Shown one piece after another: positions 16,485 to 60,507 of a DNA stretch of 64,000 bases (position 1 is its first letter; every line of letters begins with the position of its first letter). Both the position numbers and the translations under genes were made by a program. Source of the DNA: Deltaproteobacteria bacterium (GTDB lineage: Bacteria; Desulfobacterota; Binatia; HRBIN30; JACQVA1); assembly GCA_016178705.1 (NCBI GenBank), contig JACOST010000033.1, forward strand, positions 62,001 to 126,000, given 5' to 3'. The notes under the pieces are model-generated. The model saw nothing but the letters and a program-made list of their open reading frames with translations. It had not been told where the DNA came from and ran no database searches.

Positions 16485-19154
16485 CTACTGCGGCTTCGCG
16501 AATTTCTGGATGCGGTGGTTCATCGTATCGGAGACGTAGACGTTGCCTTGGGTGTCGACGGCGATGCCGATGGGGCGGTTGAAGTCGCCGCTGCCGGAAC
16601 CGCTCTTGCCCCACGCCCCGTTGAACTCGTGGCCGGCGTAGCGCGTGAAGCGCTGGTTGTTGGAGTCGGTGGCGTACAGGTCCGTGCCCATCACGGCGAG
16701 GTAGGGCTCGGTGTAGAATTCTTCCCAGCCGAAGACCGGGAACTCTTCTTTGAAGGCGCCGGCGGCATCGAAGATCTGCACGCGGTGGTTGCCGGTATCA
16801 GCGACGATCACGCGGCCCTCGGCGTCGACAGCGATACCGACCGGCTCGATCAACTCGCCCGGCTTCGATCCATCCTTGCCCCACACTGCCTTCTGCTTGC
16901 CGTCGGAGGTGTACGCTACCACGCGTTTGTTGCCGGTGTCGGTGACGTAGACGGTGCCGTCGGGTGCGACTGCCACACCGCGTGGCCCCCACAGGCTCGG
17001 ATTCTCTTCGACCCATTGCAGCAGGAATTTTCCGTTGGCGTCGAATTTCTGCACGCGGTGGTTCCAGGTGTCGGCGACGTACACCGAACCGTCGGGGCCG
17101 ATCGCCAGGCCGCACGCGTCTTTGAATTCGCCCGGCCCGTTGCCTTCGTGGCCCCACGCGGTGATCGCATGGCCGTCGGCACCGAGCTTCTGCACGCGGT
17201 TGTTTTTCGTGTCCATCACGAAGACGTTGCCGCCGGCGTCAACCGCGATGCCACGCGGTTCGTTGAACTCGCCCAGACTCGACCCCTGTTTGCCCCAGAT
17301 GGCTTCCGCGGTGATCAACTTCGGCGATTGCGGATAACCTTTCGCTGCTGGCGGTGGATTCACCGCAATCGCCGCGAAGGTCATCCCCGGCTTCACGTCC
17401 TTGGCGATGTATGCGACCGCGTCGCTCGATCCGGTCCCGCTCCAGGCTTCGCGCGTGAAGATCCAGCGCATCAGCTTGGGCAGGTTCATCTGATTCCACG
17501 TCGGCTCCCACCAGCCGCGAATCTGGAACGGCACCTTGTCGTACTTGTCGCCGAGCGGTTGATCGAGGGCGTTGATCACGTCTTTGTTGACGATGAGGAC
17601 GGGCGTATCGACGTTGCGCACGTCGGCCGCCCAGTTGACCGGATAGTGGCGGAGGTACCAGCTGAACGGCCAGGTCGCGTCACCCGAGACAGCGAGGCGC
17701 GTTTGAGTGCCGGTGCCGAGCGTCTTCGCGATGTCGTCGACGCGGCGCATGATCATGTTGATGTCGTAGGTCGATTGCACGTACGCGAGCATCTCGCCGT
17801 GGCGGTGCTCGGCGTTCTCGTCGGGGCGTGGCGCATCGTAAAAGTAATTCGACGCGATCAGAATCCACACGGTCAGCGCGCCCACCGCCGCCAATGGTAG
17901 CGCGGTTGCCGGCCGTTTGATCGCGCCGGTGTCGATCAGCTGTCCGAACCAGATGGCGGCAAGGATCGTCAACGGCATGACCTGCGGCACCAGGAGCCAC
18001 GGCACTTTCTCTTGCGCCCAGCCGTAGAAGCAAAGGGTGCCGAGCGTCCACAGGATGACGAAGCGAGTGAAGCGGTCGGGCAGCCAGACGCGCGCCACGC
18101 CGATCTGCGCCATGCCGAGCGCGGCGATCAGCACAATCGGCGCCGCCGGTGAGCCCTGCACCAGCAGCACGACGAACGCGGCCATGGCGATGCCGGCGCC
18201 GATGCGCATGTAGCGCAAAGCCGGGTCCGGCTTCGCGGGATTGAAGAACGGTCCGAGCACCACGGCCGCGGCACCGAAGAATATCAGTGGATCATAGAAC
18301 GTGAGCTGCGGGACGTAGTACCACCACGGGCCGCCGATGCGTTTGATCGAATGCTGCCCCCACCAGTACGACAGCGCCCGAGTGACGCCGTTCCAGTTTT
18401 TCGGATGGGTGAGGAACGACGTATACAGCACCAGCCAGATGGCGGCGAAGAGCACCGCCGTGGTGATCAACGGCAGCAGCGCGCGGCGCAACAACTCGGT
18501 GCTCTCGGACACGATCGCGCCGACCGTCTTCGAGCCGTGAACGACCTCCCACACCATCATCAGCACCAGCGCGAAGAGGAGGACGGGCGTCACCACGTAC
18601 ATGTCCTCTTTGGTGCAGAAGGCGAGCGCGAGACCGGCGCCACTGATGTAGAGATGCTTGGCCGAACGACTCTCGCCGTAACGGAAGGCGAAGAAGACGG
18701 CGATCAGGTTGCACAGCGCGAGATAGATGTCGTGCCGGATGAAGCGGGTGAAGTAGTTGAACGATGGCGAGAAGGTGGCCAGCACCAGGAACATCAGTGC
18801 GGCGTTGCGTCCCAAGTAGCGGCGCAACGGCCAGGCGAAGCCGAGTATGCCCATGCCGAAGAAGACGGCGCTCAGCCGCCCGGTGAAGTCGCTGTCGCCA
18901 AACAGCCAGAGTACCAGCGCCGTGGAGTAGTACAGCACCGGTCCGTGATAGACCGGGTCGTAGTTGTAGTCGCCGACGCCCTGGTCGGTGATCTTCCAGG
19001 AGAAGAAGGCGTGGATCGATTCGTCGTGGTGATACGGGCGCACGCCGAGGATGTAGAGGCGCAGGAAGGTGGCGATCAGCAGCACGCCAATATAGAGACA
19101 TTGCTCGACGGTCAGCCGGCCGACAAATTTGCGATCGAGCACACTCTCTGTCAT
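16485..19154 (-). CDS. Agl23-type GT-C membrane protein fused to NHL beta-propeller
   Basis: An 889-residue protein. Residues ~20-560 form a polytopic domain with about 12 helices. The first loop carries PYHHDESIHAFFSWKI (GT-C acidic motif), then YDPVYHGPVLYYSTALVLWLFG. This matches the TIGR03663 'flippase activity-associated Agl23' group related to PMT/ArnT transferases that use polyprenyl-phosphate sugars. Residues ~617-889 hold six NHL-type blades (for example GIAVDAGGNVFVMDT, VYVADTWNHRVQKFDANG, VYVSDTMNHRIQKF), a beta-propeller that would lie on the outer face of the membrane. The fusion is a hallmark of this island: two more such proteins lie at 50.6-58.1 kb. Confidence 0.85.
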   Translation of the reverse strand: MTESVLDRKFVGRLTVEQCLYIGVLLIATFLRLYILGVRPYHHDESIHAFFSWKITDQGVGDYNYDPVYHGPVLYYSTALVLWLFGDSDFTGRLSAVFFGMGILGFAWPLRRYLGRNAALMFLVLATFSPSFNYFTRFIRHDIYLALCNLIAVFFAFRYGESRSAKHLYISGAGLALAFCTKEDMYVVTPVLLFALVLMMVWEVVHGSKTVGAIVSESTELLRRALLPLITTAVLFAAIWLVLYTSFLTHPKNWNGVTRALSYWWGQHSIKRIGGPWWYYVPQLTFYDPLIFFGAAAVVLGPFFNPAKPDPALRYMRIGAGIAMAAFVVLLVQGSPAAPIVLIAALGMAQIGVARVWLPDRFTRFVILWTLGTLCFYGWAQEKVPWLLVPQVMPLTILAAIWFGQLIDTGAIKRPATALPLAAVGALTVWILIASNYFYDAPRPDENAEHRHGEMLAYVQSTYDINMIMRRVDDIAKTLGTGTQTRLAVSGDATWPFSWYLRHYPVNWAADVRNVDTPVLIVNKDVINALDQPLGDKYDKVPFQIRGWWEPTWNQMNLPKLMRWIFTREAWSGTGSSDAVAYIAKDVKPGMTFAAIAVNPPPAAKGYPQSPKLITAEAIWGKQGSSLGEFNEPRGIAVDAGGNVFVMDTKNNRVQKLGADGHAITAWGHEGNGPGEFKDACGLAIGPDGSVYVADTWNHRVQKFDANGKFLLQWVEENPSLWGPRGVAVAPDGTVYVTDTGNKRVVAYTSDGKQKAVWGKDGSKPGELIEPVGIAVDAEGRVIVADTGNHRVQIFDAAGAFKEEFPVFGWEEFYTEPYLAVMGTDLYATDSNNQRFTRYAGHEFNGAWGKSGSGSGDFNRPIGIAVDTQGNVYVSDTMNHRIQKFAKPQ

Positions 19155-28354: not shown

Positions 28355-28446
28355 GGCGCCCCTCTCTAGCATCGCCGCGCGCGTCGCGGAACGGCCGCGA
28401 TTGCAACGCGACGATCAACTCACTATGGGGGCACGGTCGGTTAGTG

Positions 28447-33972: not shown

Positions 33973-34157
33973 GATACTCTCCGCAGTGTCATCGCGTTGG
34001 ACGATATCTTACTTGCGGCGCCTGGCCAAATCTGCGGTCAGTGCTTCCCAACGCCGAATACCGACGGCGTCTTTCCTTGCCCTGCGCGGATCGGAATGGC
34101 AAAGCTGCCGCTGGGATGACGGCGGGGGAGCGGACCACTGAGGATCAAGAACCCGGA

Positions 34158-41604: not shown

Positions 41605-41836
41605 AGAATTCAACGCAAAGTCGCCAAGGCGCAAGGACGCAAGGGGCTTTGGTCCGACGACTCTGCATGAGCGAACGCCACCGTAACGCCCTTCAGAGAA
41701 ATGGCCTCTCGTCACATACTCGTGTTGCACGTTTGCGCCCTTGTGACTTTGCGTTTGCGTATGTTTTGGATTTCTTCTCTCGTCTCGTTCAGCCCTCCTC
41801 TCTGCGACTCGGCGTCTCTGCGGTGAGATCACCTTT
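41605..41836. repeat. Long imperfect inverted repeat of the CGCAAAGTC family
   Basis: An arm ACGCAAAGTCGCCAAGGCGC (about 41612-41631) pairs with the reverse complement of TGCGCCCTTGTGACTTTGCG near 41734-41754. Beyond it lies CCTCCTCTCTGCGACTCGGC, whose complement reads as 'CTCACCGCAGAGACGCCGAG', a different common repeat, overlapping the 3' end of the gene to the right. The region is otherwise non-coding. Confidence 0.6.
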
Positions 41837-43813: not shown

Positions 43814-44017
43814 GACTACGGCGCTCTTACACGGCTCACTGGACGTCGGCAACGCAAACTGTGCAGGCGAGAATTGCTTGAGGACGTTTCTTGACAGCAA
43901 CGCAGTGGGTCTGACAGACAGCCGGAGCCGCAACGGGAGTTTAAGTGCAGCATGCCGCGACGTCTAAGGAAGACTTGCCCGGACGTCGCTTCACACCTGG
44001 GTGTGCAACTGAGGAGA

Positions 44018-45447
44018 ATGACGACGCGCCGACTACTGCTCACTGCCTTCGTGCTGACGCTGCTGGTTCTGCCCCGCAGCCTGCTTGCGGCCATCTGTTC
44101 GACGATGCCGAACAATCCTTGGGGTGCCAACACTGGCTGGTGGACCGCCGATTCGATCAGCGCCAGCAACGGCGGCACGATGACAACATGGGCCGACAGC
44201 AGCGGCAGCCTCAACACAGCGACCGTGGTCGGCCGCACGCCTCCGACCTACCAGACCGCCGTTATCAACGGTCTGCCGGTCGTGCGCTTTGATGTCCACG
44301 GTGGTGGCGCCTTTGACCTCGCGCTTCCGCGGTCGACGCAGACCTTTACGTTCATTGCGGTCGTGCGGCCCGCGGACCTGAGCCAGACCATGTCGATCCT
44401 TGCCGACTCCTACGACGGCCGCGACTTCAGCATCGCTCCGGGGGGAACGCAGTTACTGTCTCGAACATTCTTGCAAGGTCTCGGTTCGAGTGCCACGGCG
44501 ATTGCCACCACGGCCTTTCATGTTGTGACCGTGACCTACGACGGAACCACCGTCAGATTCTACCTCGACGGTGCCGCTGACGGGATCAACACCAGCGTCC
44601 GAACCTTTTCGCATACCGAGACCGCTCATCTGGGATACGCCAACATCGCGACCTCGCATTTTTTCAGGGGGGACATTGCGCAAGCTGTCCAGTGGGACAC
44701 GGTGCTATCTGACGCGGATCGGTGCGCGGCGATTGGCTGCCTTGGTTCGGAGTACGGCATCACGATCAACAGGGCTTCTTGCCCCGCGACGCCGACGCCG
44801 ACGAACACCCCAACGGGCACGCTGACACCTTCAAACACGTCAACGCCAACGCCGACTCGAACCCCGACCGCTACTCCCCGGCCAACCTGGACCCAACCGC
44901 TCTACTTCTCTACGTTCAACCACGGCGACCCCAACGATCTCTACATCTACGAAACCACCGATGCGACGAACTTCACGCTGCCCGCGGGATGCTCTGCTCC
45001 AATCGCAAAGTTTCCCGGTCCGGGAGGCGTCGGTACGTCATTGAGTACGATCGCCGACTCGCTCATGCACTACAATGGCAAATACTGGGTCGCGTTCGAG
45101 TACAACTCCTTGCTTGCCTGCGAAAACGTCTTCGGAATTATGAACGCCAGCATCAGTCTGCGGACTGGGCCGGTTGGATCGCAAGTAACAGCGGAGCGGA
45201 GGGACCGGTCCTCTTGCGCGTCAGCCCTTCGAAGTGGCGAATCTTCCTCGACGTGACCTCGGGTCAGTCGTATTCCTATGGCGACAGTACGGATGGCTGG
45301 GCAACCTGGAGCAACAGTGGGGGCTTGACCCTCATTCACACCACTCCATTCATCCGTGCTGGGACCGGTTCGTTCATGGTGATCGCACCGACGACACGGT
45401 CAAGCAGGCATCCGAAACGATCGCTGAGGAACTCACGAAGCGACTAG
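44018..45447 (+). pseudogene. Secreted LamG plus glycosidase-like protein, frameshifted
   Basis: The ATG at 44018 begins a signal peptide (RRLLLTAFVLTLLVLPRSLLA). A LamG/concanavalin-like domain follows (~20-250: WTADSISASNGGTMTTWADSSG..., VTYDGTTVRFYLDG), then a Thr/Pro linker (~255-295) and the start of a GH43-like propeller (STIADSLMHYNGKYWVAFEYN). Near 45155 the match moves to another frame, SADWAGWIASNSG and KWRIFLD, which runs to 45447, while the first frame ends at 45256. Either a real mutation or a sequencing error. If intact it would be a surface glycan-binding enzyme or lectin. The first-frame product of 412 aa lacks the enzyme's latter half. Confidence 0.72.
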
Positions 45448-47132: not shown

Positions 47133-49280
47133 TCATCCTTGCGGCGTCGGTCGCAATGCTTCGCAAGGAATGGGGCGTTCCGTCTGGTCGGCACCACGCC
47201 ACGACAGTACCAGCGTCGCGGGTGGCCCTTTGCGGATCTCCGCGCTGATGCCGATGGCGTGCGGACCAGGCACTACGCGCAGCGGCGAACCGACTGCCGC
47301 GCCGTCGATCGTTAGCGATGCCGTCGTGAACGCCTGAGCGAGCTGAACTTCGGTGGGCACACCGTCCGGGACTATGAGCGTGCCGTGCCACTCGATGCGC
47401 TGTGGGGGGTGCGGATCGCAGAGCGAGTTGAGATCGAAGAAGGCAAGGTAGGCGTCAATCACGGCTTCGGCGCCTGCGCACCCGGTGCGACGGAGACCGC
47501 AGGCCGCACTCGTTCGATCCGCATGTTGCGAACTCGTGGGAGCGTCGACGGCGAGACTCCAGCCTTTCACTGACCCGCTGGGCTCGGTGAGAGGATGTGG
47601 CACGCCTGCAGGATACACGCGCTGCACATGCGCGACGCTGTATTCTTGCGACCAGTACGGAATAACGAAGACCGCCGGTCGATTCACGTCCACCACTCGC
47701 GGAACCTGATCGACGAGGTTGGGTATGTTGACGACGCTGTGTGTGTGGGTCAGTGCCTGAAACGTATGATTGCCGACGATCGCCGGCCCGCTCTCGACAT
47801 AGTACACCGGCGTGGTCGGACCCGCGGCGATCGTGCGCGCGATCGTGTCGACCTCGTGCGCGTGGTTCATGTCGGTCAAGTAGTGCAGCGTGCGGGCGCC
47901 GCCGATCCACGCGTCGTAGCCGAAGAAGCCGAGTGTGCAGACTGCGGTCAGCGCGAATCCGACGGCGCGCGGCAGTCGGCGGCGTAGCCAGTTGAGGGGA
48001 GTGCCCACTCCCAGTCCGATCAGGATCGCCAACGCCGGCAGCGCGACGGCGAGACGATACGAGGCCTCGGGCACCGAAGAGAGTGCCACCGCGACCAGTG
48101 TCAACACTAGCCACAGCGGCGCGATCGTGAAGCGCCAATCGCGTGCGTGTGCGGCGCACACCAACACTCCCAACGCTGCGGCGATCAGCTCGCAGGTGTC
48201 CACCAATGGTTCTGTGTCGTTGTGGTTCGCGGCCATTTCGGCACCACCGATCACGATGCGCGCGAGCTGCTCAAGCTGATGGAGCAATGCTTGTTGGAGC
48301 GAGCCGTAGCGGGCGACTAGCGCGGCACGGAACGCGGGACCAAGTGCGGTGATCTCCTGCGCACGGTCTAGATACCCGAGGCCACTGTCCGTTCGGAGCA
48401 TCGGTATCAACACCATGCTGGCCACCGCGCCCGAGACCACGATCATGAGCGTCGTACGTCGTGCAAACCCGCGGGTCACCGTCGCGTGCCACAGCCACCA
48501 CACCAGAACGGTCACCAAGACGACCTTGATCGGGTCGTAGAGTTGCAAGGCCAGCCCCGCCGCGATGCCGGCAATGATCGCGTCGGAAATCCGTCCACTG
48601 TCGCATGCGCGCACCAGCAGCCACCAGATCAGCGACGCGCCGAACGCCGCGCTGAGCGATTGGCTGAAGCGCGACGCAACCAGATGCCAATGCGAGACCG
48701 TCAGCGCCAAACTTGTCGCGATGGCGATGGCCGGGCCGCTCAGTCGACGCCCCAGCGCGTAGGTTGTGGCGATCGACAACACGCCCCAGGCCGCACAACT
48801 GTAGCGCGTCGCGCTGAACCAGTTGGGCGACACGAAGCCGAGCAACCACTGCAGCGCGACGGCGAGGCCGGGGTTGCCGGTCGAGTAGCGATCGATGCGG
48901 CTGAAAATGTTCTCAGCGGTGCCGGTGCGCATCGCTTCGAGAGCGGGGAAGGCGTTGTTCTCGTCGAAGTGGATCGCATAGGGAATGTCGGTGACGCGAT
49001 AGAATCGCGGGATCGCTGCGACGATCAGAATGGCGAGAGCGATCCACCCGGTCGCCGTCATGTGGAGCCGGCGCCATTGCGGTGGTGGTGCCCACGCTGC
49101 GAGCAATACGATGAAACTGACGGCCCACGCCCAGAAGCCGATGCCGTATGGAGTCGGTAGACGTGGCCAATTCGCGACGCCCCACCACCACAGCGAGACG
49201 CCGATCCCACTCAGAATGAGGCGCACGCCTAGCAACGACTGCGTGTCGTCACTCGGTGTCGTGGCGGACACGGGGTCCAT
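47133..49280 (-). CDS. GT-C-like polytopic membrane protein with C-terminal beta domain
   Basis: A protein of about 715 residues, starting at ATG 49280, eighteen bases after the stop of a GT2 gene on the same strand, so they form an operon. About 12 helices. The acidic loop IPYAIHFDENNAFPALEAM holds the Asp-Glu pair, and SHWHLVASRFSQSLSAAF is the PMT-like second motif. The end (TASLTIDGAAVGSPLRVVPGPHAIGISAE, LVLSWRGADQ) is the same kind of beta-sandwich as in the proteins at 24.0 and 34.2 kb. Likely acts with the GT2 product as a polyprenyl-phosphate-sugar-dependent transferase. Confidence 0.8.
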   Translation of the reverse strand: MDPVSATTPSDDTQSLLGVRLILSGIGVSLWWWGVANWPRLPTPYGIGFWAWAVSFIVLLAAWAPPPQWRRLHMTATGWIALAILIVAAIPRFYRVTDIPYAIHFDENNAFPALEAMRTGTAENIFSRIDRYSTGNPGLAVALQWLLGFVSPNWFSATRYSCAAWGVLSIATTYALGRRLSGPAIAIATSLALTVSHWHLVASRFSQSLSAAFGASLIWWLLVRACDSGRISDAIIAGIAAGLALQLYDPIKVVLVTVLVWWLWHATVTRGFARRTTLMIVVSGAVASMVLIPMLRTDSGLGYLDRAQEITALGPAFRAALVARYGSLQQALLHQLEQLARIVIGGAEMAANHNDTEPLVDTCELIAAALGVLVCAAHARDWRFTIAPLWLVLTLVAVALSSVPEASYRLAVALPALAILIGLGVGTPLNWLRRRLPRAVGFALTAVCTLGFFGYDAWIGGARTLHYLTDMNHAHEVDTIARTIAAGPTTPVYYVESGPAIVGNHTFQALTHTHSVVNIPNLVDQVPRVVDVNRPAVFVIPYWSQEYSVAHVQRVYPAGVPHPLTEPSGSVKGWSLAVDAPTSSQHADRTSAACGLRRTGCAGAEAVIDAYLAFFDLNSLCDPHPPQRIEWHGTLIVPDGVPTEVQLAQAFTTASLTIDGAAVGSPLRVVPGPHAIGISAEIRKGPPATLVLSWRGADQTERPIPCEALRPTPQG

Positions 49281-49297
49281 ATCGACTCGCGGCAGAC

Positions 49298-50476
49298 TCA
49301 ATCGATCCGGCGATCGATCGCCAGCATGCTGAGGAAGAATGACGAGAAGATGATCTCCACGCCGAGACCCATCAGCGTCGACGCCAGCAGCGCCGGCCGT
49401 ACGGCGTTGAGCTCGCCCATGCCGCTGCGCAGCCAATCGACCAAGATCGTTGCGTTGATGATCAACCCGAGCAGCAGCACGACCGCCCCCACGATCAAGC
49501 CGCGTTCGAGGTTGAAGTAGCGGCTGATCCAATTCAGCGTGCGATCGGGTGCGTAGAGTCGCGCCGCGTGCGAGTACGCCTTGGCGAAGAAGCCGGTGGC
49601 GATGGTTTGAAAGCCGAGTAGCGTGAGCAAGCTGCCCACGACCATGTAGTGCACGTCGAACCGCAAGCCCAAGAGCGATTGCGGCCCGCGCACCAAAGCC
49701 AGCTGCGTCAGCAATCCGATGAGCATCGCGGCCAGCCCGGGAACGAGAAACAGATAGGTTGGCGAGAACAGCAACATGAAACGCAAATGCCGCCAGCCGT
49801 CGCGGAACGAGCGCAAGTGCGGCGGCCGATCGCGCTGGTCGCGATGCAACGTGATCGGAATCTCGGTCATGCGCAGCCCGGCGAATGCCGCCTTGATCAC
49901 CATCTCGGACGCGAACTCCATTCCCGTCGTGCGCAACTGCATGCGGCGATAGCCGTCTTTGCTGAAGCCGCGCATGCCGCAGTGCGCGTCGGAGACGCCG
50001 GGGCGAAACAGCAGGCCGAGCAGTCCCGACAGTAGCGGGTTACCAATCCAGCGATGCAGCCACGGCATCGCACCCGGTTCAATCCGTCCGCGCAGGCGAT
50101 TGCCCATCACCAGATCGTAGCCCTCGCGCAACTTCAGCACGAAGCGTTCGAGATCGCCGAGATCGTACGACTGGTCGGCGTCGGCCATGATGATGTAGCG
50201 GCCACGTGCGGCCTCGATGCCGCCCATCAACGCGCTGCCGTAGCCGGGCCGCGTCTCATGCACGACCCGCGCGCCTTCGCGTTCCGCGATCGCGACCGAG
50301 TCGTCGGTGGAGCCATTGTCCGCTACCACCACTTCGCCCGCGATGCCGAGCCTGCGGATCGTCTCGACGGCGAGGCGCACGCACGGCCCGACCGTCAGCG
50401 CCTCGTTGAGGCACGGCAGCACGACGGAGAGTTCGAGTTCGTTCGGCATCGCTGCGGTTTGCTCGGCCCCACTCAT
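49298..50476 (-). CDS. GT2 polyprenyl-phosphate sugar synthase with four C-terminal helices
   Basis: A 392-residue enzyme. The GT-A part (1-235) has LSVVLPCLNEALTVGPCV, VVADNGSTDDSVAIA, RPGYGSALMGGIEAARGRYIIMADADQSYDLGD (DxD) and DAHCGMRGF. Residues ~240-385 give four membrane helices. This is the layout of the dolichyl-phosphate-glucose/mannose synthase-like family. The ATG at 50476 starts close to a dispersed repeat. Its stop lies 18 bases from the downstream GT-C start, so it probably supplies that transferase's lipid-linked sugar. Confidence 0.9.
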   Translation of the reverse strand: MSGAEQTAAMPNELELSVVLPCLNEALTVGPCVRLAVETIRRLGIAGEVVVADNGSTDDSVAIAEREGARVVHETRPGYGSALMGGIEAARGRYIIMADADQSYDLGDLERFVLKLREGYDLVMGNRLRGRIEPGAMPWLHRWIGNPLLSGLLGLLFRPGVSDAHCGMRGFSKDGYRRMQLRTTGMEFASEMVIKAAFAGLRMTEIPITLHRDQRDRPPHLRSFRDGWRHLRFMLLFSPTYLFLVPGLAAMLIGLLTQLALVRGPQSLLGLRFDVHYMVVGSLLTLLGFQTIATGFFAKAYSHAARLYAPDRTLNWISRYFNLERGLIVGAVVLLLGLIINATILVDWLRSGMGELNAVRPALLASTLMGLGVEIIFSSFFLSMLAIDRRID

Positions 50477-50607: not shown

Positions 50608-53190
50608 TCATCCCTTCTTGCGCGGTATGCGCGTCACCGCGTCGCGGCCGCGTTCGGTGATGTACAGCGTCGTCTTGTCCGACGCGATGCCCGACGGTCC
50701 CATCAAGTTGTCGGTGGGAATCTCGCTCAGCGCGTCGCCGTGCACGCGGAACAAGCGGTTGCCAACCGGATCGGCGAGTATGAGTCCATCGTCCGTCAAT
50801 GCGAGGTAGCCTTCCTTCACGCCATCGCCTTCCCAACCCGGCACGGCGATGGTGCGTGCTGACGTACCGTCGGCGTGGAACGCTTGCAAGCGATTGTTGC
50901 CGCTGTCCACCACCCAGATGAGCCCGTCGCGATCGACGGCGATCCCCACCGGCTGGAAGAGATCGCCGGCGCCGCTGCCGTGCTGGCCGAACTCGCTGAG
51001 GAATGTTCCGTCGAGATCGAACACCGCCACGTGGTTGTTGCCACCATCGGTGACGTAGACGCGATCCTTGGTGATGGCGATGCCACGCGGGCCGAAGAAG
51101 CCTTTGGGTGGCGCGTAGATCTTGATGAGATTGCCGTCGGGCGCGATTTTCTGCACGCGATGGTTCCAGGTGTCGACGACGTGGACGTTGCCGGCGCGAT
51201 CGATGGCGATCGCGTGCGGTTCATTGAAGGAGACAGGGGTGCTGCCGAACTGACCCCAGACGGCGATCAGCACACCTTTCGCGTCGAACTTTTGTATTCG
51301 ATGGTTGCCGGTGTCGACAACGTAGAACTCGCCCTTGTCGCTGCGAGCGATTCCTTTCGGTGTGTTGAACTTGCCCGGCTCGGTGCCGCGGCCACCGCTC
51401 CACATGTTCGCGCCTTTGGCGACTTCGGCGAGATTGTCCGGTGCCGTGCGCGGCGCGGCGTCGGGTGGCAACAGCAACGCGCGCGCGACGATCGGACCGT
51501 CGTCGGGGTAGCGCAGGTCGACGACCTCCGCTTGCGGGAAGCGCTGCTGGAGTTTGCCGAATACGCCGGGCGACGCGTCGATGTTGGCGAGGATCAGCGC
51601 CAGCCCTTGCCCCGGCGGCGCTTGCGGCAGCTCGCGCAGCAGCACGGTCACATCGTCGATCCAGGTGTAGTCGCGTTGAAACGGATCGTCACCGCCGGCG
51701 TAGGTCAGGTAGGTGAGCGTGTCGCGCGGCCAATTCGCCCCGCCGGCCGCAATCGCATACTTGCCGCGCAGCGTGCGCATGAAGCGGCCGACCACTGTGG
51801 CGTCGGGATAGAAGCCCCAGATGCGCCGCCGCGACTGACTGAGATACTCGTGGTAGGTCGCTGTCGCTTGCGCGGCGCCGGCGATGGCGATCACGACGCA
51901 CGCGGCGACCCCACCGGCGCGGCCGAGGCGGCGGGCTTGGCGAACGAAGTACAGCAACCCCAAGCCGACGAAACAAAAGACGAACGGCATCGTGCCGACG
52001 CCGCGGTTGGCGTTCGGTCGGGTGACGAGGCCGGGGAGCAGATTGACGAGTAATCCTAAGAGCAGAAACATCGCGCGCGGATCGCTGGCGCGCAGCACGC
52101 ACCACAAGAGTCCGAAGACGAACAAGACGGCGGCCGGCACTTCCAACAGGGGCGTGGTGACGAAGAAGTCATCGCTGTTGCCCCAGTAGTTGTACAGCAA
52201 CGCCGCGGCGCGCGGACCGGTCCAGGCCAGCATCTCTGGCGTCTGATTGGCGAGCAGCGAGTTGGCGCGACCCCAGAACTCAATCCAGTGAAAGGCCGCG
52301 TACCAGGCCATCGGCGCGATGACGATGGCGAAGGCGAGCAGCATGACGCCGACGCCGGCCGCGTAGCGCCGCAGCACGGCGGCGAACGGCCGGTTGCGCA
52401 GCACATAGAATAGCGCGAACAGCGGGAACAGCAGCGGGAACGCCCGCGCCGCGTTGTAGGTGTTGAGCGTGAGCGCGAGGGCGATGCCGCTCAGCATGAA
52501 GTCGCGCCAGCGCGCGTGCACCATGCCGCGCCAGAAGAACATGCAGGTCATCGTCGTGAACAACGGCTGGAGGGCGGAGCGCCACCCGACGCGGGCGGAA
52601 AGCAGGGGCCAGCCGGCGGTGGCGAACAGGAGCGTGGCGACCAACGCGGCGCGTGCGCCGAACTGACTGCGCACGAAGCCGTAGAAGAACGGCAGTGTCA
52701 GTAACATCGCTACTAACGCCGGCAGCGTCAGCGCGAAGAGATCCATCCCGAACAGCTTGATGGCGAGCGCGTCGAAGTAGAACATCAACGTCTCGCGTCC
52801 CCACGCCGACGCGACGTACGGGGTGTACGCAATGCCGCGCAGGATGCTGGCGGAGTACAAACCTTCCCAGGCAATGTCGTGATTCAATCCTGACGGCAAC
52901 TCGGAGAGCCGGAAGGTGAAGAAGAACGCGCCGACCGCGAGTACGGCCAGCAGCAGCGGCCACTCGCTCGTCGCCGGTAGCGATTCGCTCGCCGCCGGCA
53001 ACTCGCGCCCGCGCGCATCGAGTGCGTAGAGCAACACGAAGACGGCGGCAGCGACTGCCCAGCCGATGGCGGCGAGGCGCGCGTTGAATTGAACGGCGAG
53101 CGAGTATTGTCCGGCGACCGCCGCGGCGAGTGCGATCAACGCCAGGAGGGAACGAACGACGGCGTATTCACCGACCTTCGCCATACGCAA
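50608..53190 (-). CDS. GT39-like membrane glycosyltransferase fused to NHL beta-propeller
   Basis: An 860-residue protein. About 12 helices (10-480) include the acidic loop LPSGLNHDIAWEGLYSASI and the motif ATAGWPLLSARVGWRSALQPLF, PMT-like. Residues ~595-860 form an NHL propeller: GIARSDKGEFYVVDTGNHRIQKFD, AGNVHVVDTWNHRVQKI, VYVTDGGNNHVAVF, LIWVVDSGNNRLQAF. Its start overlaps the stop of the upstream 1657-aa gene by 23 bases, so the two propeller proteins are co-transcribed and possibly coupled. The start could also be ATG 53184, two codons later. Confidence 0.85.
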   Translation of the reverse strand: MRMAKVGEYAVVRSLLALIALAAAVAGQYSLAVQFNARLAAIGWAVAAAVFVLLYALDARGRELPAASESLPATSEWPLLLAVLAVGAFFFTFRLSELPSGLNHDIAWEGLYSASILRGIAYTPYVASAWGRETLMFYFDALAIKLFGMDLFALTLPALVAMLLTLPFFYGFVRSQFGARAALVATLLFATAGWPLLSARVGWRSALQPLFTTMTCMFFWRGMVHARWRDFMLSGIALALTLNTYNAARAFPLLFPLFALFYVLRNRPFAAVLRRYAAGVGVMLLAFAIVIAPMAWYAAFHWIEFWGRANSLLANQTPEMLAWTGPRAAALLYNYWGNSDDFFVTTPLLEVPAAVLFVFGLLWCVLRASDPRAMFLLLGLLVNLLPGLVTRPNANRGVGTMPFVFCFVGLGLLYFVRQARRLGRAGGVAACVVIAIAGAAQATATYHEYLSQSRRRIWGFYPDATVVGRFMRTLRGKYAIAAGGANWPRDTLTYLTYAGGDDPFQRDYTWIDDVTVLLRELPQAPPGQGLALILANIDASPGVFGKLQQRFPQAEVVDLRYPDDGPIVARALLLPPDAAPRTAPDNLAEVAKGANMWSGGRGTEPGKFNTPKGIARSDKGEFYVVDTGNHRIQKFDAKGVLIAVWGQFGSTPVSFNEPHAIAIDRAGNVHVVDTWNHRVQKIAPDGNLIKIYAPPKGFFGPRGIAITKDRVYVTDGGNNHVAVFDLDGTFLSEFGQHGSGAGDLFQPVGIAVDRDGLIWVVDSGNNRLQAFHADGTSARTIAVPGWEGDGVKEGYLALTDDGLILADPVGNRLFRVHGDALSEIPTDNLMGPSGIASDKTTLYITERGRDAVTRIPRKKG

Positions 53191-56100
53191 AGCGGACGAG
53201 CTTGTGTTCGAGATCGGAGACCACCATTTCCTTCGTCACCGGATTGAACGCGATGCCCATCGGGGTTTCGAACTGCGCGGTCGGAATCGTCTTGCCGGTG
53301 ATCGTCCGCAGCAGTTTGCCGCTGGTGTCGTAGGCGCGCACTTCTTTCGCGCCCGACACGGTGACCCAGATCGCACCCTTGGAGTCGATCGCGACGTAGG
53401 GCTCGGCGTAAACCTGGCTCAGCCAACCGGGCACGGGGAAGCTGCTGACGAACGCGCCGTCGCGGCTGAAGATCTGCAAGCGTCCGTTGCCGTTGTCGCA
53501 GACGTAGACCTTGCCCTTGCCGTCGACGGCAATACCGGTCGGTTCGAAGAACTTGCCGTCCTCGCTGCCGTGCGCGCCCCAGGTCGCTTCCAACTCGCCG
53601 GTCGGCGAGAAGCGCATGATGCGGTTGTTGCCGGTATCGGCGACGAACACTGCTCCGCTGCCGTCGATGGCGATGCCGCGCGGGCCGTAGAATCCCGAGC
53701 CCCACTCGCGCACGTACTGCCCCTTGTCGGTGAACACCTGCACGCGATGGTTCCAAGTGTCGGCGACGAAGACATTGTTCTTCGGACCGACGGCGATACC
53801 GCAGGGATCTTTGAACTGACTCGGCAACTCGCCGTGCTCGCCCCAGGCGAGATCGAATTTGAGATCCTTGTTGAACTTCTGAATCCGCGCGTTGCCGAAG
53901 TCGCAGGCGTACACGGCACCGGTGCTATCGACGGCGACGCCGCGCGGCTGATGTAGTTGGCCTTCTGGTTCGGGGGCAGGGGCCGGGGCTTCATCGGCGG
54001 TGACGCGCGGAACTTCTTCGACCGTGGTCACCGGAATCGCCCCGGTGAAGTTGCCGCTCACCGCGTAGATGCTGACAGCCGAGTTCTCGTAGACCGGAGT
54101 CAGCAGGTTGCTCCACGTTTTGAACTGCTCGGTGTTGGCGCCGTTATACGTGCGGCGTTCGAGCGGCCCGACGTACACCATCGCGACGTGGTAGCGTTCG
54201 AGCGCGGCGCGCACCTGGTCTTTGTTGTCGCTGGTGTAGATGAGCTTGATGTCGTTCTTGCGGCGGTTGACGTCCGGCTGCGTCGCCGCGCGCTGGATCA
54301 CATGGTACTCCCAGCCCAGAACAGTCGGCAGGCCGGTGTTCATCGAGACGCGCGAGAATTCTTGGTACGACGGTCCGAAGGCTTCGACGATGACGGGGAT
54401 GCCGCTGATGCGCTCGTTGAGCCACTTGTACGAGGCGACTTCGTACGGGTCGTGCTCGTCGAGATAGAGCGTGCCGTTGAGCGTCGGCTTCGGCGTCTTC
54501 ACGCGATTGGTGGTGAGCACGCCGTAGGTGCCGGACACGCTGGTGAACACCGCGACCGCTACTAACACGACCAGTCCAGCCTGCCAGACGCGCCGCGCCA
54601 CGCCGCTCAGCACCCGGCCACTCCACAACTCGGCCACCGCCGCCGCCGCGGCGCCCGAGAAAATGAGCCACGAGTCGAGATAGAATTTGAAGATCGTGTT
54701 CATGCGGTCCCACACGAACACGATCTCGCAGCCGGCGGTGATGAAGCACGCGAACGCGGCCAGCGCGATCGGTACACGATGGTGTGCGTCAGTGCGCGGG
54801 TGCAGCGCCAAGTGCAGGCCGAGCATCGCGATGATCAGCTCGAAGGCGCGCGTCGAGATGAACAAGCTGGCAATCGCGCCGACGATCACCAATCCGATCA
54901 CTGCAATGCGAAACCATCCCAGACGTAGCTCCGTGCCCAAGCGCGGCGCCGCTGGGGGCAGCGGCGGAATGACGATGGGCACAACTTCCGGTGGCGATTC
55001 GATCCATGCGTTCTCGGCGACCGCCATCGCACCGGGTGCGTTCGCTTCATCGTCCGCAGTCTCAGCGGCGGGCGCCGGATCGATTTCGACAGCCATCGGT
55101 GGTGGTTGCGTTGCTGCAACGGGCCGCGGCTGCGGCATCAGCACGCGGCGCCAGTTGGCGAAGAAGAACGGAATCAGGATGTAGAGGAACAATCCGAAAA
55201 TCTGCAGGAAGTCGCGTGGCCGCGCGTATGGACCGACCTCCCAGCCGATGTTGCGCTCCGGCGGTGTGAAGTGAAACCAGAAGGGGAGATAGAAGGCGTA
55301 CGCGACGATGACGACGAGCACCGCCGGCGTCAGCACGCGCGTGAAGAACTGTCCGATGAAGGTGAAGAAACGCCGCCCGCTGCTGGCCCCGATCCAGTGG
55401 CAGGCGAGTAGGAACGGAAACACCAGCACGTACGTCGGTGAGCTCCATCCGTTCGAGACCATCACGGTGCCGAGCGCGAGCCCGAGCAACAGCGTGAGCG
55501 CCGTGCGCGACGACGGCGCGCCGTCGGGCTCGCCAAATCGCCGCCGCACCCACGCCACCACCAAACACAGGAAGGTGAGCGAGAACGGCATCACCATCAC
55601 GTGGGCGTGCAGATCGGCGAACAGGAAGCTCCACAGCGGGAACTCGTTGATGGTATCTTTGATCACGCGCGAGGTGGCCCAGAAGTAGTCGAAGTTCATC
55701 ACGCCGCGCGTGTAGTACTCGCGCGGCCCGGAGAGATTGCCGAGCAGGACGGTCAAGATGCCGGCCAGCACGCCGGTCTGCCAACGCTTGGTGATGGCGT
55801 GGCCGAGGGCGAACGCGGCGACCGCGGTGAGTCCACCGAAGAAAGCGATGGCGAGGTTGAACGTGATCGCCGGATCGATGTGACAGACCTTGCCGAGCGC
55901 GGCGCTGATGAAGTGGCCGAAGTAGGAGTAGTTGAGATCGTGGCCGGCGAACCACGGCTCCGGCGGCGGCAGCGTGGTGGCGCGCGTCAGCGCGTTGAGG
56001 AACGAGAAGTCCATCGGCTTCTCGCCCCAGAAAATCTCCGGGTTGAACGATCGCACGATCAGGAAGAACAGGAACGTGCCCCAAAACAGCGCTTCCACTG

Positions 56101-58141
56101 CGATCCATTGGCTGGCGTTGTCGCGATCGATGTCATCGCTTGGCGTCGCGGTGCGCCGCGCGCGCAACCAGCTCATCAGACCGAGCCCACCCATGAGTAG
56201 CGCGGTGGTCGCTAGCGTACTGCGGGTGAAGTCGGCCTGCCCCAAACTCACCAGCAGCCACGGGACGTAGGCGAACACCAACACGCCGAGCACTTTGGCA
56301 AGCGCGTACGGACTCGCGCCCGCCAGCCAGCGGCGGGTGAGCGGATAGGTGGCGAGGGCGAGCGCTTCGATCAGCAACGCGAAGGTGAACAGCGCGGGCA
56401 AGCTCGAATGAATCGGTTCGCTGGCGACGCCCGCCGTGGCTTCACCGGGACGGGCCAGCAGCAGTTCGTTGCGCGTCATCTGCCGCGACGGCAGGCCGTG
56501 CAGAATTTTGTCGAGGATCGCGTCGGCCGAGAGGTGGCCCTCATTGCGGAAGATGAGTACCTTCGGGTGATCGTAGACGGTGAACGATTCGTCGACGATC
56601 TCATCGGGGAACTCGAGCCCGAACAGGTTCGGGCGCGCCGCTTCCTCGTAGGTCAGCGTGTAGCCGAGATCACCGGCGAACAGCAGGTAGAAGTAGTTGC
56701 TGGTGAGCGGAAACTTCTGCGCCGCCTGAGTGGTCGCGCCGTACAGCCGTTTGGTTTGGAACGCGATGTACTCGGCGTCGGCCAGCTCCTTCGCCAGCTT
56801 GGCCATCTTCGCCGGATTGTCCGGCTCGTAGTATCCGAAGTTGACGATCTTGTAGCGCTCCGGATTGAAGCCGCCGGGCAGCGGCATCGGGAAGCCTTCG
56901 TCCCAATCTTGGCTGAGAATTCTGCTGCCGGCGGGAATGAATTTGTAAACCCATTCGGAGCCCGCAACGACGGTATGCGGCCGCGAGTAGATCGCCAGAA
57001 ATGCCAGCAGCGCAGCTGTGGTGCCGACGACCACTGTGGGCAGCGCCACTCGCCCAATACCGCCGCGACGATAGACCCGCAGCAGCCATTCGGCCGCCCA
57101 TAGGATCATGAGCGGATAGATCGGCAGCAGGTAGCGGATGAACTTGACCTCGAACCAACCGGTGACGAGGAAGAACGGCACCACCCACGCAAGCAGCACG
57201 ATCTCTTCCGCGCGCTCGCGCCAGACGCCGGCCACGTGGCGGCCGCTCGCCCAGATCGCCGCCAGCGCCAGCGGTGGCGCCATGCCGCAGAGGATCATCT
57301 GGATGAGTTCGTAGCCGTACTTCGGCGTGCCGACGTACTGATTGGTGTACGGGAACTGGCCGGCGTTGCGCACCATGCCGCTTTGTTCGAGCAGGTCGTG
57401 AGTGAAGTCCTTGAAATCGAGGATGGCGTAAGGCTGGCCGATGGCGAAGGCGACGCCGACCAAGATCGTGGCGCCAACGACGCGCAGCAGCACCGGCACC
57501 AGTCGATCGCCCTTCATGATGCGCGACACGGCGGCGATGCCGAGCGGCAGCATGATCGGGAACGCGCTGGCTTTGGTGGCGCCGGCGAAGCCGATGATCA
57601 ACCCGGCGATGAGGTAGTCGCGCGTCCACCCGCGTTGCACCACATGCGTGAGCCGGTAGAGCGCGAGCAGGACGAGGAAGGTCAGCGTGATGTCGACGGT
57701 GCCGTAGTGCGAGTTCTGCACGTGCAGCACGCAGGCGGCGAGCAGGAATCCCGCCAGCAGGCCGGTTGGACGGTCGTAAAGCCGGAAGCCGAGCAAGATG
57801 ACGAGCAACACGGTGAGCGTGCCCATCACGCCGGAGACAGCGCGCGAGGTGTGGATGGCGCTGTCGTAACCCAGCCAGCGCTGGTCGATCAGGCCGAGCA
57901 GGCTATTGGCGGCCTTGTCGATGTAGATCGGGAACGACCCGTAGGCGAAGAACTTGGGGTTGAGTTGCAGCGGCTGAAACGAAAGGTCGCCGATGGCATA
58001 GGCGATGCGGCGCTCATCGGGATGGAAAAAATGGTGTTGATCGAAATCGATGTTGGTCAGCCGGACCAGCGCCGCGAACAACGTGATCGCGAAGATCCAA
58101 ACCGACGGCTTCCGCAGCCAACGCGCTCCCGCCCCGTCCAT
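53168..58141 (-). CDS. Giant GT39 + DUF2298 (YYY) + NHL-propeller membrane protein
   Basis: A 1657-residue chain. Residues 1-~580 are a GT39-like unit with HHFFHPDERRIAYAIG (the Asp-Glu loop) and about 10-12 helices. Residues ~600-1215 are a DUF2298/TIGR03662 'YYY' unit: IFWGEKPMDFSFLNALTR, EPWFAGHDLNYSYFGHF and FPLWSFLFADLHAHVMVMPFS, plus about 12 more helices and a Pro-rich cytoplasmic loop (~1000-1065). Residues ~1220-1370 are soluble, and ~1395-1657 are an NHL propeller (FVADTWNHRVQVF, VFVADTGNNRIMRFSP, VYVCDNGNGRLQIF). YYY proteins are known mainly from Chloroflexi and archaea. Probable role: polyprenyl-linked sugar transfer outside the membrane. Confidence 0.87.
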   Translation of the reverse strand: MDGAGARWLRKPSVWIFAITLFAALVRLTNIDFDQHHFFHPDERRIAYAIGDLSFQPLQLNPKFFAYGSFPIYIDKAANSLLGLIDQRWLGYDSAIHTSRAVSGVMGTLTVLLVILLGFRLYDRPTGLLAGFLLAACVLHVQNSHYGTVDITLTFLVLLALYRLTHVVQRGWTRDYLIAGLIIGFAGATKASAFPIMLPLGIAAVSRIMKGDRLVPVLLRVVGATILVGVAFAIGQPYAILDFKDFTHDLLEQSGMVRNAGQFPYTNQYVGTPKYGYELIQMILCGMAPPLALAAIWASGRHVAGVWRERAEEIVLLAWVVPFFLVTGWFEVKFIRYLLPIYPLMILWAAEWLLRVYRRGGIGRVALPTVVVGTTAALLAFLAIYSRPHTVVAGSEWVYKFIPAGSRILSQDWDEGFPMPLPGGFNPERYKIVNFGYYEPDNPAKMAKLAKELADAEYIAFQTKRLYGATTQAAQKFPLTSNYFYLLFAGDLGYTLTYEEAARPNLFGLEFPDEIVDESFTVYDHPKVLIFRNEGHLSADAILDKILHGLPSRQMTRNELLLARPGEATAGVASEPIHSSLPALFTFALLIEALALATYPLTRRWLAGASPYALAKVLGVLVFAYVPWLLVSLGQADFTRSTLATTALLMGGLGLMSWLRARRTATPSDDIDRDNASQWIAVEALFWGTFLFFLIVRSFNPEIFWGEKPMDFSFLNALTRATTLPPPEPWFAGHDLNYSYFGHFISAALGKVCHIDPAITFNLAIAFFGGLTAVAAFALGHAITKRWQTGVLAGILTVLLGNLSGPREYYTRGVMNFDYFWATSRVIKDTINEFPLWSFLFADLHAHVMVMPFSLTFLCLVVAWVRRRFGEPDGAPSSRTALTLLLGLALGTVMVSNGWSSPTYVLVFPFLLACHWIGASSGRRFFTFIGQFFTRVLTPAVLVVIVAYAFYLPFWFHFTPPERNIGWEVGPYARPRDFLQIFGLFLYILIPFFFANWRRVLMPQPRPVAATQPPPMAVEIDPAPAAETADDEANAPGAMAVAENAWIESPPEVVPIVIPPLPPAAPRLGTELRLGWFRIAVIGLVIVGAIASLFISTRAFELIIAMLGLHLALHPRTDAHHRVPIALAAFACFITAGCEIVFVWDRMNTIFKFYLDSWLIFSGAAAAAVAELWSGRVLSGVARRVWQAGLVVLVAVAVFTSVSGTYGVLTTNRVKTPKPTLNGTLYLDEHDPYEVASYKWLNERISGIPVIVEAFGPSYQEFSRVSMNTGLPTVLGWEYHVIQRAATQPDVNRRKNDIKLIYTSDNKDQVRAALERYHVAMVYVGPLERRTYNGANTEQFKTWSNLLTPVYENSAVSIYAVSGNFTGAIPVTTVEEVPRVTADEAPAPAPEPEGQLHQPRGVAVDSTGAVYACDFGNARIQKFNKDLKFDLAWGEHGELPSQFKDPCGIAVGPKNNVFVADTWNHRVQVFTDKGQYVREWGSGFYGPRGIAIDGSGAVFVADTGNNRIMRFSPTGELEATWGAHGSEDGKFFEPTGIAVDGKGKVYVCDNGNGRLQIFSRDGAFVSSFPVPGWLSQVYAEPYVAIDSKGAIWVTVSGAKEVRAYDTSGKLLRTITGKTIPTAQFETPMGIAFNPVTKEMVVSDLEHKLVRFAYGEGR

Positions 58142-59307: not shown

Positions 59308-60507
59308 GTGCGCCTCACATCGGTAACCTTGGCGGTGCTCATATTGACGGGCACTGCTGTTGACGCGGCTACACCGCTCAAAGCCATCCGCTACACCCCC
59401 GACATCACCGTCGTGCTCGGCGGAATCACGGTCACACCGCAGAACATCGCCGAAGACAACCTCGCCGGCGCCGTCACGCTGGTCACCGCCGGCACCTATC
59501 CCAACGGCACCGACATCATCGCCTACGATCATCTCGCCACCGGCGATCAGCTTCTGACCTTCGACACCGACCTCACCCTGCCCGGCGGCCTCACCGTGCG
59601 CCCCGGCGATGTCGTGCGCTTCAACGGCATCACCTACACGTTGGAGTTCGACGCCACGGCCAACGGCATTCCTCTGGGCGTGATGACCGATGCGGTGAGC
59701 GAGATCGGCCCCAACGACCTGCTGCTCTCCTTTGACGTGACCGTGACCCTCGGCAGCATCACCGCCGATGACGAGGATCTGGTGCGTTTTCACAGCGGCA
59801 TGTTCAGCCTCTTCTTCGACGGCTCGGCTGCCGGCATCGACCCGAGCCTCGATCTCGATGCGGCGCACATCCTCACGAGCGACGGCCGCCTGCTGCTCGC
59901 CTTCGACGGCAGCGGCACGGTGGGCGCCGTGAACTTCACCGCCGAAGATATGCTGGAGTTCACGCCCACGACCACCGGCTGGGAGCTGAGCTACGACGGG
60001 CTGGCCGAGCACAGCGGCTGGTTCGGGGCGCAGCTGCATGGGCTCAGTGCGGTCACCAAGCCGCCGCCGAAGCCGGTGGTACCGGGATTCGACCCGAACA
60101 GTGGCGGCGGGAGGGCAGGCTCGGGCGTATTTCCGGGATCGACGCGGGTATTCGGGATGGGGACGCCGAACGCGGTACCGGGCAACTCGTGTATCTTGAT
60201 CTACGCGGTCGGTCCGAACGGCGTGCCCGACAGTCCGCCGGGCAGCGTCGATGATCCGTTGCTCGGCACCGGCGGCACCAACGCGAGCGGCCTCTTCGTC
60301 GACGCGATGGGCAACCCAGGCATCGCGGTGTCGCCCCGGCTGCGGCAAGGCGAGCGCATTTTCGCGGTCGATGTCTGCCAGGGCCGGGTGGGGCAGGTCG
60401 TAACCGTCTCAACCACCCCGGTACCGGCAGCGTCGACCCTCGGCCTAGCGCTTATGATCGGGGTGCTTGCACTCATGGGACTGCGGGCGCGGCGCGTGAA
60501 GTCGTAA
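59308..60507 (+). CDS. Secreted tandem-repeat protein with PEP/IPTL-CTERM-like sorting tail
   Basis: A 399-residue protein starting with GTG; a signal peptide (~1-21) ends VDA-AT. Residues ~30-245 contain four copies of a ~55-residue unit with the pattern LLxFDxxxTLGxxxxxxxDLVRFxxxxxxLxFDGxAxGI (compare LLLSFDVTVTLGSITADDED and LLLAFDGSGTVGAVNFTAED). A Gly/Pro-rich middle follows, then a PxPAASTLGLALMIGVLALMGLRARRVKS-like end: Pro-containing motif, hydrophobic helix, basic tail, as in proteins sorted by exosortase or rhombosortase. No sortase-like enzyme lies in the window. Confidence 0.75.
   Translation: MRLTSVTLAVLILTGTAVDAATPLKAIRYTPDITVVLGGITVTPQNIAEDNLAGAVTLVTAGTYPNGTDIIAYDHLATGDQLLTFDTDLTLPGGLTVRPGDVVRFNGITYTLEFDATANGIPLGVMTDAVSEIGPNDLLLSFDVTVTLGSITADDEDLVRFHSGMFSLFFDGSAAGIDPSLDLDAAHILTSDGRLLLAFDGSGTVGAVNFTAEDMLEFTPTTTGWELSYDGLAEHSGWFGAQLHGLSAVTKPPPKPVVPGFDPNSGGGRAGSGVFPGSTRVFGMGTPNAVPGNSCILIYAVGPNGVPDSPPGSVDDPLLGTGGTNASGLFVDAMGNPGIAVSPRLRQGERIFAVDVCQGRVGQVVTVSTTPVPAASTLGLALMIGVLALMGLRARRVKS

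Follow-up and report, generated by a model that had tools for sequence, protein, structure and literature searches.

The window analysed here is a stretch of 64,000 nucleotides (nt) of contig JACOST010000033.1 (positions 62,001 to 126,000), from a genome deposited as Deltaproteobacteria bacterium. On its reverse strand lies a gene for a 1657-residue protein made of three parts: a half similar to the GT39/PMT glycosyltransferases, a half belonging to the YYY family (TIGR03662, DUF2298 in Pfam), and an NHL beta-propeller. The gene and its parts are listed below with the evidence for each (AF2, AlphaFold2; OST, oligosaccharyltransferase).

53168..58141 (-): whole gene, GT39/PMT-like half, YYY half and NHL propeller; 1657 amino acids (aa), a single unbroken open reading frame starting with ATG
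56462..58141 (-): GT39/PMT-like half, residues 1–560, GT-C membrane domain and outer C-terminal domain (PMT_2/PMT, AF2 model)
58010..58018 (-): D42-E43-R44, acid motif of the first outer loop of the GT39 half (conservation)
54062..56389 (-): YYY/DUF2298 half, residues 585–1360, predicted GT-C fold (TIGR03662, AF2 model)
56009..56023 (-): E707-K-P-M-D711, predicted first-loop metal or catalytic acid of the YYY half (conservation, position)
55601..55615 (-): D843-L-H845-A-H847, predicted second metal motif of the YYY half (conservation, D161-H-H163 pattern of AglB)
54056..54454 (-): globular domain ending the YYY half, residues 1230–1362, similar to OST C-terminal domains (3vu0 match)
53171..54016 (-): NHL beta-propeller, residues 1376–1657, predicted on the outer face (NHL repeats, hydropathy)

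All three parts exceed the curated cut-offs. In Pfam, the N-terminal half matches PMT_2 (41.4 bits, cut-off 26.1, residues 99–225) and PMT (35.4 bits, cut-off 22.7, residues 98–209). DUF2298 is matched over its whole profile (positions 1–488 of 488) at residues 621–1160, with 326.5 bits against a cut-off of 27.8. TIGR03662 of NCBIfam is matched at residues 585–1360 (477.4 bits, cut-off 300.25, model 7–726 of 727), so this region is a full-length member of the family. NHL reaches 109.8 bits (cut-off 20) in four stretches of the whole protein, the best at 1442–1469, and 127.1 bits when the C-terminal part is searched alone. The fusion and its three parts are thus confirmed, as the preliminary description of this DNA had proposed; DER at residues 42–44 and the YYY motifs HDLNYSYFGHF and FADLHAHVMV are also present in the translation as claimed there.

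Predicted folds and conserved residues of the two halves

The YYY half was modelled with AF2 at residues 575–1375 from 65 relatives. The model has a mean predicted local distance difference test score (pLDDT) of 89.9 and a predicted template-modelling score (pTM) of 0.90. In the VIA comparison with known structures, it resembles STT3 (Z 21.0; 462 residues, root-mean-square deviation (rmsd) 6.6), AglB (19.2), ArnT (18.1), Pmt4 (17.4) and ALG12 (Z 18.1, rmsd 3.9 over 326 residues). The 44 rows shown at Z of at least 8 (one per entry; 49 chains) are all GT-C-type glycosylation proteins or OST C-terminal domains, and the next row is an unrelated design at Z 4.5. All seven Foldseek matches at E ≤ 0.001 are entries of DPY19 (a C-mannosyltransferase), AglB, AftA, or PglB. 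The closing domain (residues 1230–1362) matches the C-terminal domain of AfAglB-S2, 3vu0, with Z 11.1 and rmsd 2.2 over 113 residues. The YYY half is therefore predicted with high confidence to have a GT-C glycosyltransferase fold like those of STT3/AglB, ArnT and Pmt.

Sixty-six YYY units share the invariant residues E707, E833, H845, H847, R1146, E1253, H1280, R1294 and E1328, among others. D843 is found in 65 of the 66 (the remaining one is X), and position 711 is D in 48, E in 17 and N in one. In the two-half AF2 model described below, E707 comes just after the first core helix (673–699), presumably on the outer side, and D-L-H (843–845) just before helix 846–870. The metal of AglB is bound by D47, from its first DXD motif, together with D161 and H163 from the second (Asp-His-His); these motifs are on external loops 1 and 2, according to a section of PMC8342417.

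Membership of the YYY half in the OST family was considered and rejected. The motif WWDYG (as in the relevant part of PMC3703281) is absent from the consensus and the invariant columns of the 66 YYY sequences. The fusion of the window has no match to STT3 (PF02516) at E ≤ 0.1; the STT3 match of the same genome is on another contig, C1.

The GT39 half likewise fits a GT-C fold, judging from a two-half AF2 model (residues 1–1200; pLDDT 87.5, pTM 0.72), and its first outer loop bears two adjacent acids. The structure rows, which cover the GT39 part only, include AglB (Z 30.4, rmsd 7.7 over 434) and Pmt4 (Z 28.5, rmsd 3.5 over 381). A 56-row profile of this half finds STT3A (8e-06) and ArnT (5.7e-05) in the PDB; a profile of 5 sequences finds nothing there at E ≤ 1. 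Among 56 aligned GT39 halves, D42 and E43 are each present in all 56 and R44 in 52. AglB, Pmt and ArnT are all good fold matches, so this half may belong to GT39 or to another GT-C family. In the related fusion frame of G356, the region upstream of the YYY unit, i.e., the GT39 half, scores 23.3 bits with STT3 (PF02516), against a cut-off of 24.5. Membership in Agl23 is rejected, the TIGR03663 scores being 21.9 bits (G000) and 43.4 bits (G056), below the cut-off of 126.25. The chain almost certainly contains two GT-C folds.

Profile comparison of the two halves finds their last two membrane helices and the outer domain common to both, at probability 95.8; one reversed and five block-shuffled controls give at most 1.0. 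The membrane parts alone match weakly in hhalign (probability 54 and 65), only their last part being covered, and for the earlier helices there is no such profile match.

In the two-half AF2 model, three helices (580–602, 611–632 and 640–664) link the GT39 half to the YYY core. If the outer domain of the GT39 half is outside, this odd number would orient the YYY core correctly and leave the propeller on the outside. A simple hydropathy scan finds no hydrophobic segment beyond residue 1199. The charges of the linker fit this topology only in part. Loop 1 contains two arginines (RRWLAGAS) and loop 2 none, and the loop ahead of the core helix contains three acids and no arginine, but RARR closes helix 640–664.

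Fused and separate halves in other genomes

Within the class of the window genome, TIGR03662 is matched in 20 of 148 genomes at E ≤ 0.001 and over its cut-off in 16. All of these 16, including that of the window, have the GT39 half, YYY and NHL in one frame, although contig ends clip part of the N-terminus in G358 and part of the propeller in G363 and G368. A second, separate YYY accompanies the fusion on its contig in thirteen of them. The two are on different contigs in G367 and G358, the separate copy of G358 being a 454-aa piece below the cut-off, and the TIGR03662 search found no separate YYY in G368. A common gene order is YYY, GT4, methyltransferase, fusion, PMT_2+NHL. Among the 14 other class genomes read, 7 have a relative of the 860-aa PMT_2+NHL protein (described below) after the fusion, as does G056.

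In the wider phylum sample TIGR03662 is rare, being matched in 10 of 297 genomes at E ≤ 0.001 and over the cut-off in 7. Six of the latter contain a GT39-YYY frame (G000, G056, G042, G290, G078 and G005), the frame of G005 being cut at a contig end and counted by its DNA likeness to G042. The seventh, G015, has YYY over the cut-off and no GT39-YYY frame. There (L028, 12021–16384), the YYY match is directly followed by a TIGR03663 match, forming a YYY-Agl23 pair. As a control, Haloferax volcanii gives a TIGR03662 match too. The fused YYY of L067 (3008–7501; the same as G042), from a metagenome-assembled genome (MAG) deposited as Deltaproteobacteria, groups with Ardenticatenia (Chloroflexota) in both trees described below, by gene transfer or mis-binning.

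A scan of 84,980 species genomes with the GT39-half alignment gives 223 relatives, of which the loci of the best 80 were used. The GT39 half and YYY are in one frame in 58 of these 80. In three of the 58 (L038, L097 and L108) YYY continues in a second frame, and several are clipped by contig ends. The NHL propeller follows GT39-YYY in 7 of the 58. In 7 further loci the halves are separate genes 1.6–7.7 kb apart, on opposite strands in L103; six of these loci are from candidate-phylum bacteria, and the seventh, L114, groups with them in the trees. The GT39 half alone is seen in the remaining 15. For these, the absence of YYY is weak evidence because the flanks are short: 4 of the 15 have less than 300 bases downstream and 3 more less than 5 kb. 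No YYY is seen within ~10 kb downstream of the GT39 half in L066, L068, L069, L084, L086 and L088. Agl23 as a constant neighbour is not supported: a home-made profile finds it in 8 of the 58 fused loci and none of the 7 separate ones, many of the loci being short.

In the MAG of Roseiflexus sp. (L115, 1987–10035), a 2683-aa frame contains the GT39 half, two YYY units and tetratricopeptide (TPR) repeats, the last in the place of the propeller of the window. L098 (46–3909), deposited as 'Euryarchaeota archaeon RS352', encodes a fused protein in a frame of 1288 aa. It has the same length as, and is nearest in the tree to, L092 of SAR202 Chloroflexi, and its name is doubtful.

The phylum of the Roseiflexus MAG, taken as Chloroflexota, was sampled with 301 genomes. 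YYY is over the cut-off in 193 of them, and the GT39 half is found at 1e-50 in 190. Among the matches listed, which come from 147 of the 190 genomes, 126 genomes have the GT39 half in a frame of at least 1250 aa; these frames were judged on length, not on YYY content case by case. Of the other listed genomes, 15 have the GT39 half solely in frames of at most 750 aa, and 6 are in between. Eleven of the 15 short-frame regions were inspected. Eight (G492, G501, G510, G550, G574, G590, G622 and G721) contain the GT39 half and YYY as adjacent genes on the same strand, with 121–338 nt between the open frames. Of the remaining three, two run into a contig end downstream, namely G606 and G471 (the latter without YYY over the cut-off), and G458 has no YYY within the 15 kb read. 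Four short-frame genomes are outside the inspected set (G457, G464, G566 and G678); in the first three of them the GT39 half and YYY are on different contigs. In three Chloroflexota sets scanned, an Agl23 gene is third after the unfused pair (269, 260 and 271 bits).

These facts indicate that the GT39-YYY fusion is widespread and old, and the restriction applies to its propeller end only. A fusion peculiar to this genome is ruled out, and its presence confers no rarity on the genome. The premise of the preliminary description that YYY is known as separate chains does not hold, given the single frames in the 58 loci and the 126 long frames among the 147 listed Chloroflexota genomes. The gene-fusion survey that it suggested gives a positive result, through the 8 adjacent pairs and the 7 further loci. 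Neither a failure of one half to match its models nor a lack of neighbourhood in other genomes, which might have spoken against it, was seen.

Two trees of YYY units were made, one by FastTree from 110 rows and one by IQ-TREE (quick, LG+G4) from 93 rows, with 22 rows dropped (near-duplicates and long branches) and 5 unfused rows added. Both are quick and unrooted, without bootstrap, with long-branch warnings and without archaeal YYY proteins. The first sorts fused and separate copies strongly, with 4 changes of the fused label and 3 of the separate label against about 35 in shuffles. In the second, the separate copies, including the five unfused neighbours, form nearly one group, and the separate copies of L059 and L063 are placed among the fused ones. 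Many genomes have both a fused and a free YYY, which are old paralogues; the genome of the window is ordinary in this respect.

The genomic island around the fusion

Four other genes of the window are listed below.

50608..53190 (-): PMT_2 protein with its own NHL propeller, 860 aa; next gene, its frame sharing 23 nt with the end of the fusion
49298..50476 (-): GT2 protein of AglJ / polyprenyl-phosphate sugar synthase type, possible donor supply (Glycos_transf_2, 89.5 bits)
47133..49532 (-): further PMT_2 membrane protein, 799 aa (32.7 bits, cut-off 26.1)
16485..19154 (-): Agl23-type protein, NHL in five stretches, putative flippase for lipid-linked sugar (TIGR03663 318 bits, cut-off 126.25; NHL 165.1 bits)

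The last of these is the Agl23-type propeller protein that had been noticed in the island, about 34 kb from the fusion gene. The best NCBIfam match of the GT2 protein is AglJ, at 142.6 bits under a cut-off of 325. Other PMT_2 proteins are at 20096, 24039 and 60994 of the window, each over the cut-off, and one at 41789 is just below it (25.9 bits against 26.1). The fusion, its 860-aa neighbour and the Agl23 protein have propellers that are pairwise 37–41% identical, and the membrane parts of the three show only short, weak matches. This indicates that one propeller type is common to three different membrane proteins.

The separate YYY gene of this genome is on the same contig, 2.0 kb beyond the end of the window (L003, 3004–5169, 721 aa). 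Genes for GT4 and a methyltransferase follow it on the same strand.

Several other proteins are encoded in the window. A 1544-aa protein with Laminin_G_3 and NHL repeats (36877–41511, +) and a 434-aa Laminin_G_3 protein (43952–45256, +), both of the same island, could be secreted acceptors or adhesins. A 399-aa protein (59308–60507, +) has a C-terminal tail that by eye resembles PEP-CTERM, with small residues, a hydrophobic stretch and arginines. Two proteins, of 924 aa (33888–36662, +) and 574 aa (26648–28372, -), have no Pfam match at E 0.001.

Proposed mechanism and known systems

The fusion is probably a tandem of two GT-C-type membrane glycosyltransferases that carries its propeller at the outer surface of the cytoplasmic membrane. 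The computation establishes the three parts, their recurrence and neighbourhood, the conserved residues and the predicted folds, whereas activity, donor and acceptor are inferred. Lipid-linked sugars would be synthesized in the cytoplasm, perhaps by way of the GT2 protein, and flipped to the outside, for which Agl23 is the candidate. Each half would then transfer a sugar from its polyprenyl-phosphate carrier, situated in the outer leaflet, to an acceptor that is outside the cell membrane. The GT39 half would act through its PMT-like D-E pair, and the YYY half through E707, D843 and H845 around a divalent metal, comparable with D47, D161 and H163 of AglB. The three linking helices would allow both active sites to face outside. 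The propeller, whose type recurs in two other GT-C-type proteins of the island, would hold the acceptor or tie these proteins together as a docking platform.

The two sites are both rather likely to be active. Their action in sequence on one glycan is conceivable, at somewhat less than even chances. As a tentative proposal of similar standing, DUF2298/YYY could be a metal-dependent GT-C family, the fusion adding two sugars sequentially from two polyprenyl-linked donors to one propeller-held acceptor, and the free neighbouring YYY gene could encode a paralogue that acts in an additional step of making the same surface glycan. That two GT-C units are joined in one chain across phyla, and are separate neighbouring genes elsewhere, argues for units that work together. 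The preliminary description is thus upheld in the parts of the fusion, the Agl23 neighbour and the adjacency of the halves in other genomes, and not in its premise of separate chains. As DUF2298 itself is predicted to be of GT-C type, the fusion would join a transferase with a transferase-like unit, rather than an enzyme with a partner of unknown role.

Several points weigh against two active transferases. The YYY half has no sequence match to any known GT-C family in Pfam or in a profile search of the PDB, so its assignment rests on the predicted fold; its profile finds no GT-C enzyme in the PDB, the best match being an OST C-terminal domain at E 0.25 and the others triosephosphate isomerase and potassium-channel chains. 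The seven Foldseek matches are modest, with TM scores of 0.33–0.42 by query length and rmsd of 14–24 Å over gapped alignments, and the rmsd is 6–8 Å in many of the VIA alignments. A common fold by itself proves no function. The equivalence of E707, D843 and H845 with the AglB ligands is by loop position and motif pattern, not by superposed atoms. The two-half model has a pTM of 0.72, and a contact between its halves is hypothetical. Co-occurrence of the halves in Chloroflexota is also incomplete: the GT39 half is matched at 1e-50 in G471, G545 and G686, where YYY does not reach its cut-off (G545 and G686 lack any YYY match), and conversely G444 and G484 contain YYY but no GT39 half at that threshold. 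The parts of the literature searched report no activity of any DUF2298 protein. Finally, Agl23, which is matched by PMT_2 here, in its Haloarcula form flips lipid-linked glycan in vitro (PMC11182771, in part), so that kinship with PMT need not mean transfer.

This last point leads to the chief alternative, in which the YYY half is a flippase or a presenter of lipid-linked sugar, handing the polyprenyl-linked sugar to the GT39 half as the sole transferase. Agl23 of Haloarcula hispanica, a putative hexose-P-dolichol flippase, moves lipid-linked glycan in liposomes according to the same source. The TIGR03663 family is PMT-like, its genes come after the unfused pair in the three sets scanned and after the fusion in G290, and a hand-over from flippase to transferase would account for the fusion. 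However, an Agl23-type gene is already present in the window and is over the cut-off in 7 of 8 genomes searched, which would make a second flippase redundant, and an Agl23-like gene is within the fetched stretch in so few of the fused loci (8 of 58). Besides, YYY has preserved both its invariant acid and its D-x-H motif, in the manner of metal-using transferases, and its outer domain resembles the C-terminal one of OST. A flippase role of the YYY half is therefore considered unlikely.

Slightly less likely again is a chain with a single active half, in which the remaining GT-C unit would be an inactive scaffold that serves assembly or binds the acceptor. Complexes of the GT-C superfamily may hold non-catalytic members, such as PIG-U of the GPI transamidase, and U chains of this transamidase are among the fold matches. 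The loop acids are nevertheless without exception in both halves, D42 and E43 in 56 of 56 and E707 in 66 of 66. The long frame might also be taken for an assembly error or for two genes read as one. Only the second frames of L038, L097 and L108 could be cited for this, and nothing in the window itself; it is refuted by the recurrence of the same architecture in all 16 class genomes over the cut-off and of the GT39-YYY frame in the 58 loci, those three included.

The confidently predicted GT-C fold and the candidate metal site make DUF2298 proteins candidate glycosyltransferases that can be put to the test. This applies at least to Chloroflexota, Acidobacteria, candidate-phylum bacteria and the phylum of the window. 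Cooperation of the units would give insight into the assembly of surface glycans or glycoproteins in poorly known bacteria.

In the literature searched, as far as its text was available, the names TIGR03662, TIGR03663 and PF10060 are not found and DUF2298 is named in two papers only. In a table of PMC8756737, neighbouring accessions of one Chloroflexi genome are listed with DUF2298 and PMT2/PA14, and in the part of PMC9943897 seen, work on Agl22/Agl23 appears in the reference list only.

Among the closest known systems is the family of the YYY half itself, Chlor_Arch_YYY. DUF2298 may already be placed among the GT-C families in Pfam. The annotation of TIGR03662 reportedly mentions a class of proteins that have an additional N-terminal region, a pair of YYY copies and TPR repeats; the protein of the Roseiflexus MAG fits this class. 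In contrast to that class, the fusion of the window has one YYY copy and an NHL propeller. A PMT/GT39-like GT-C unit is recognised in its N-terminal region, and YYY itself is predicted to be of GT-C type.

STT3/AglB/PglB, the top VIA matches of both halves, share with the fusion a GT-C membrane domain and an outer globular domain, an acid of the first loop, and D-x-H. They differ in that YYY has neither the STT3 match of Pfam nor WWDYG, and the fusion has two units per chain and a propeller. Agl23 is related through PMT_2, ends in NHL in this island and is a genome neighbour of the pair in some lineages, while the GT39 half is a separate family by its TIGR03663 score of 21.9 bits in G000. Pmt1-Pmt2 and Pmt4 resemble the GT39 half both by sequence and by fold. 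Pmt enzymes pair up and bear outer MIR domains, an analogy for two units with an outer docking domain. Unlike them, the fusion is a covalent tandem of two distinct GT-C families, with a propeller in the place of MIR.

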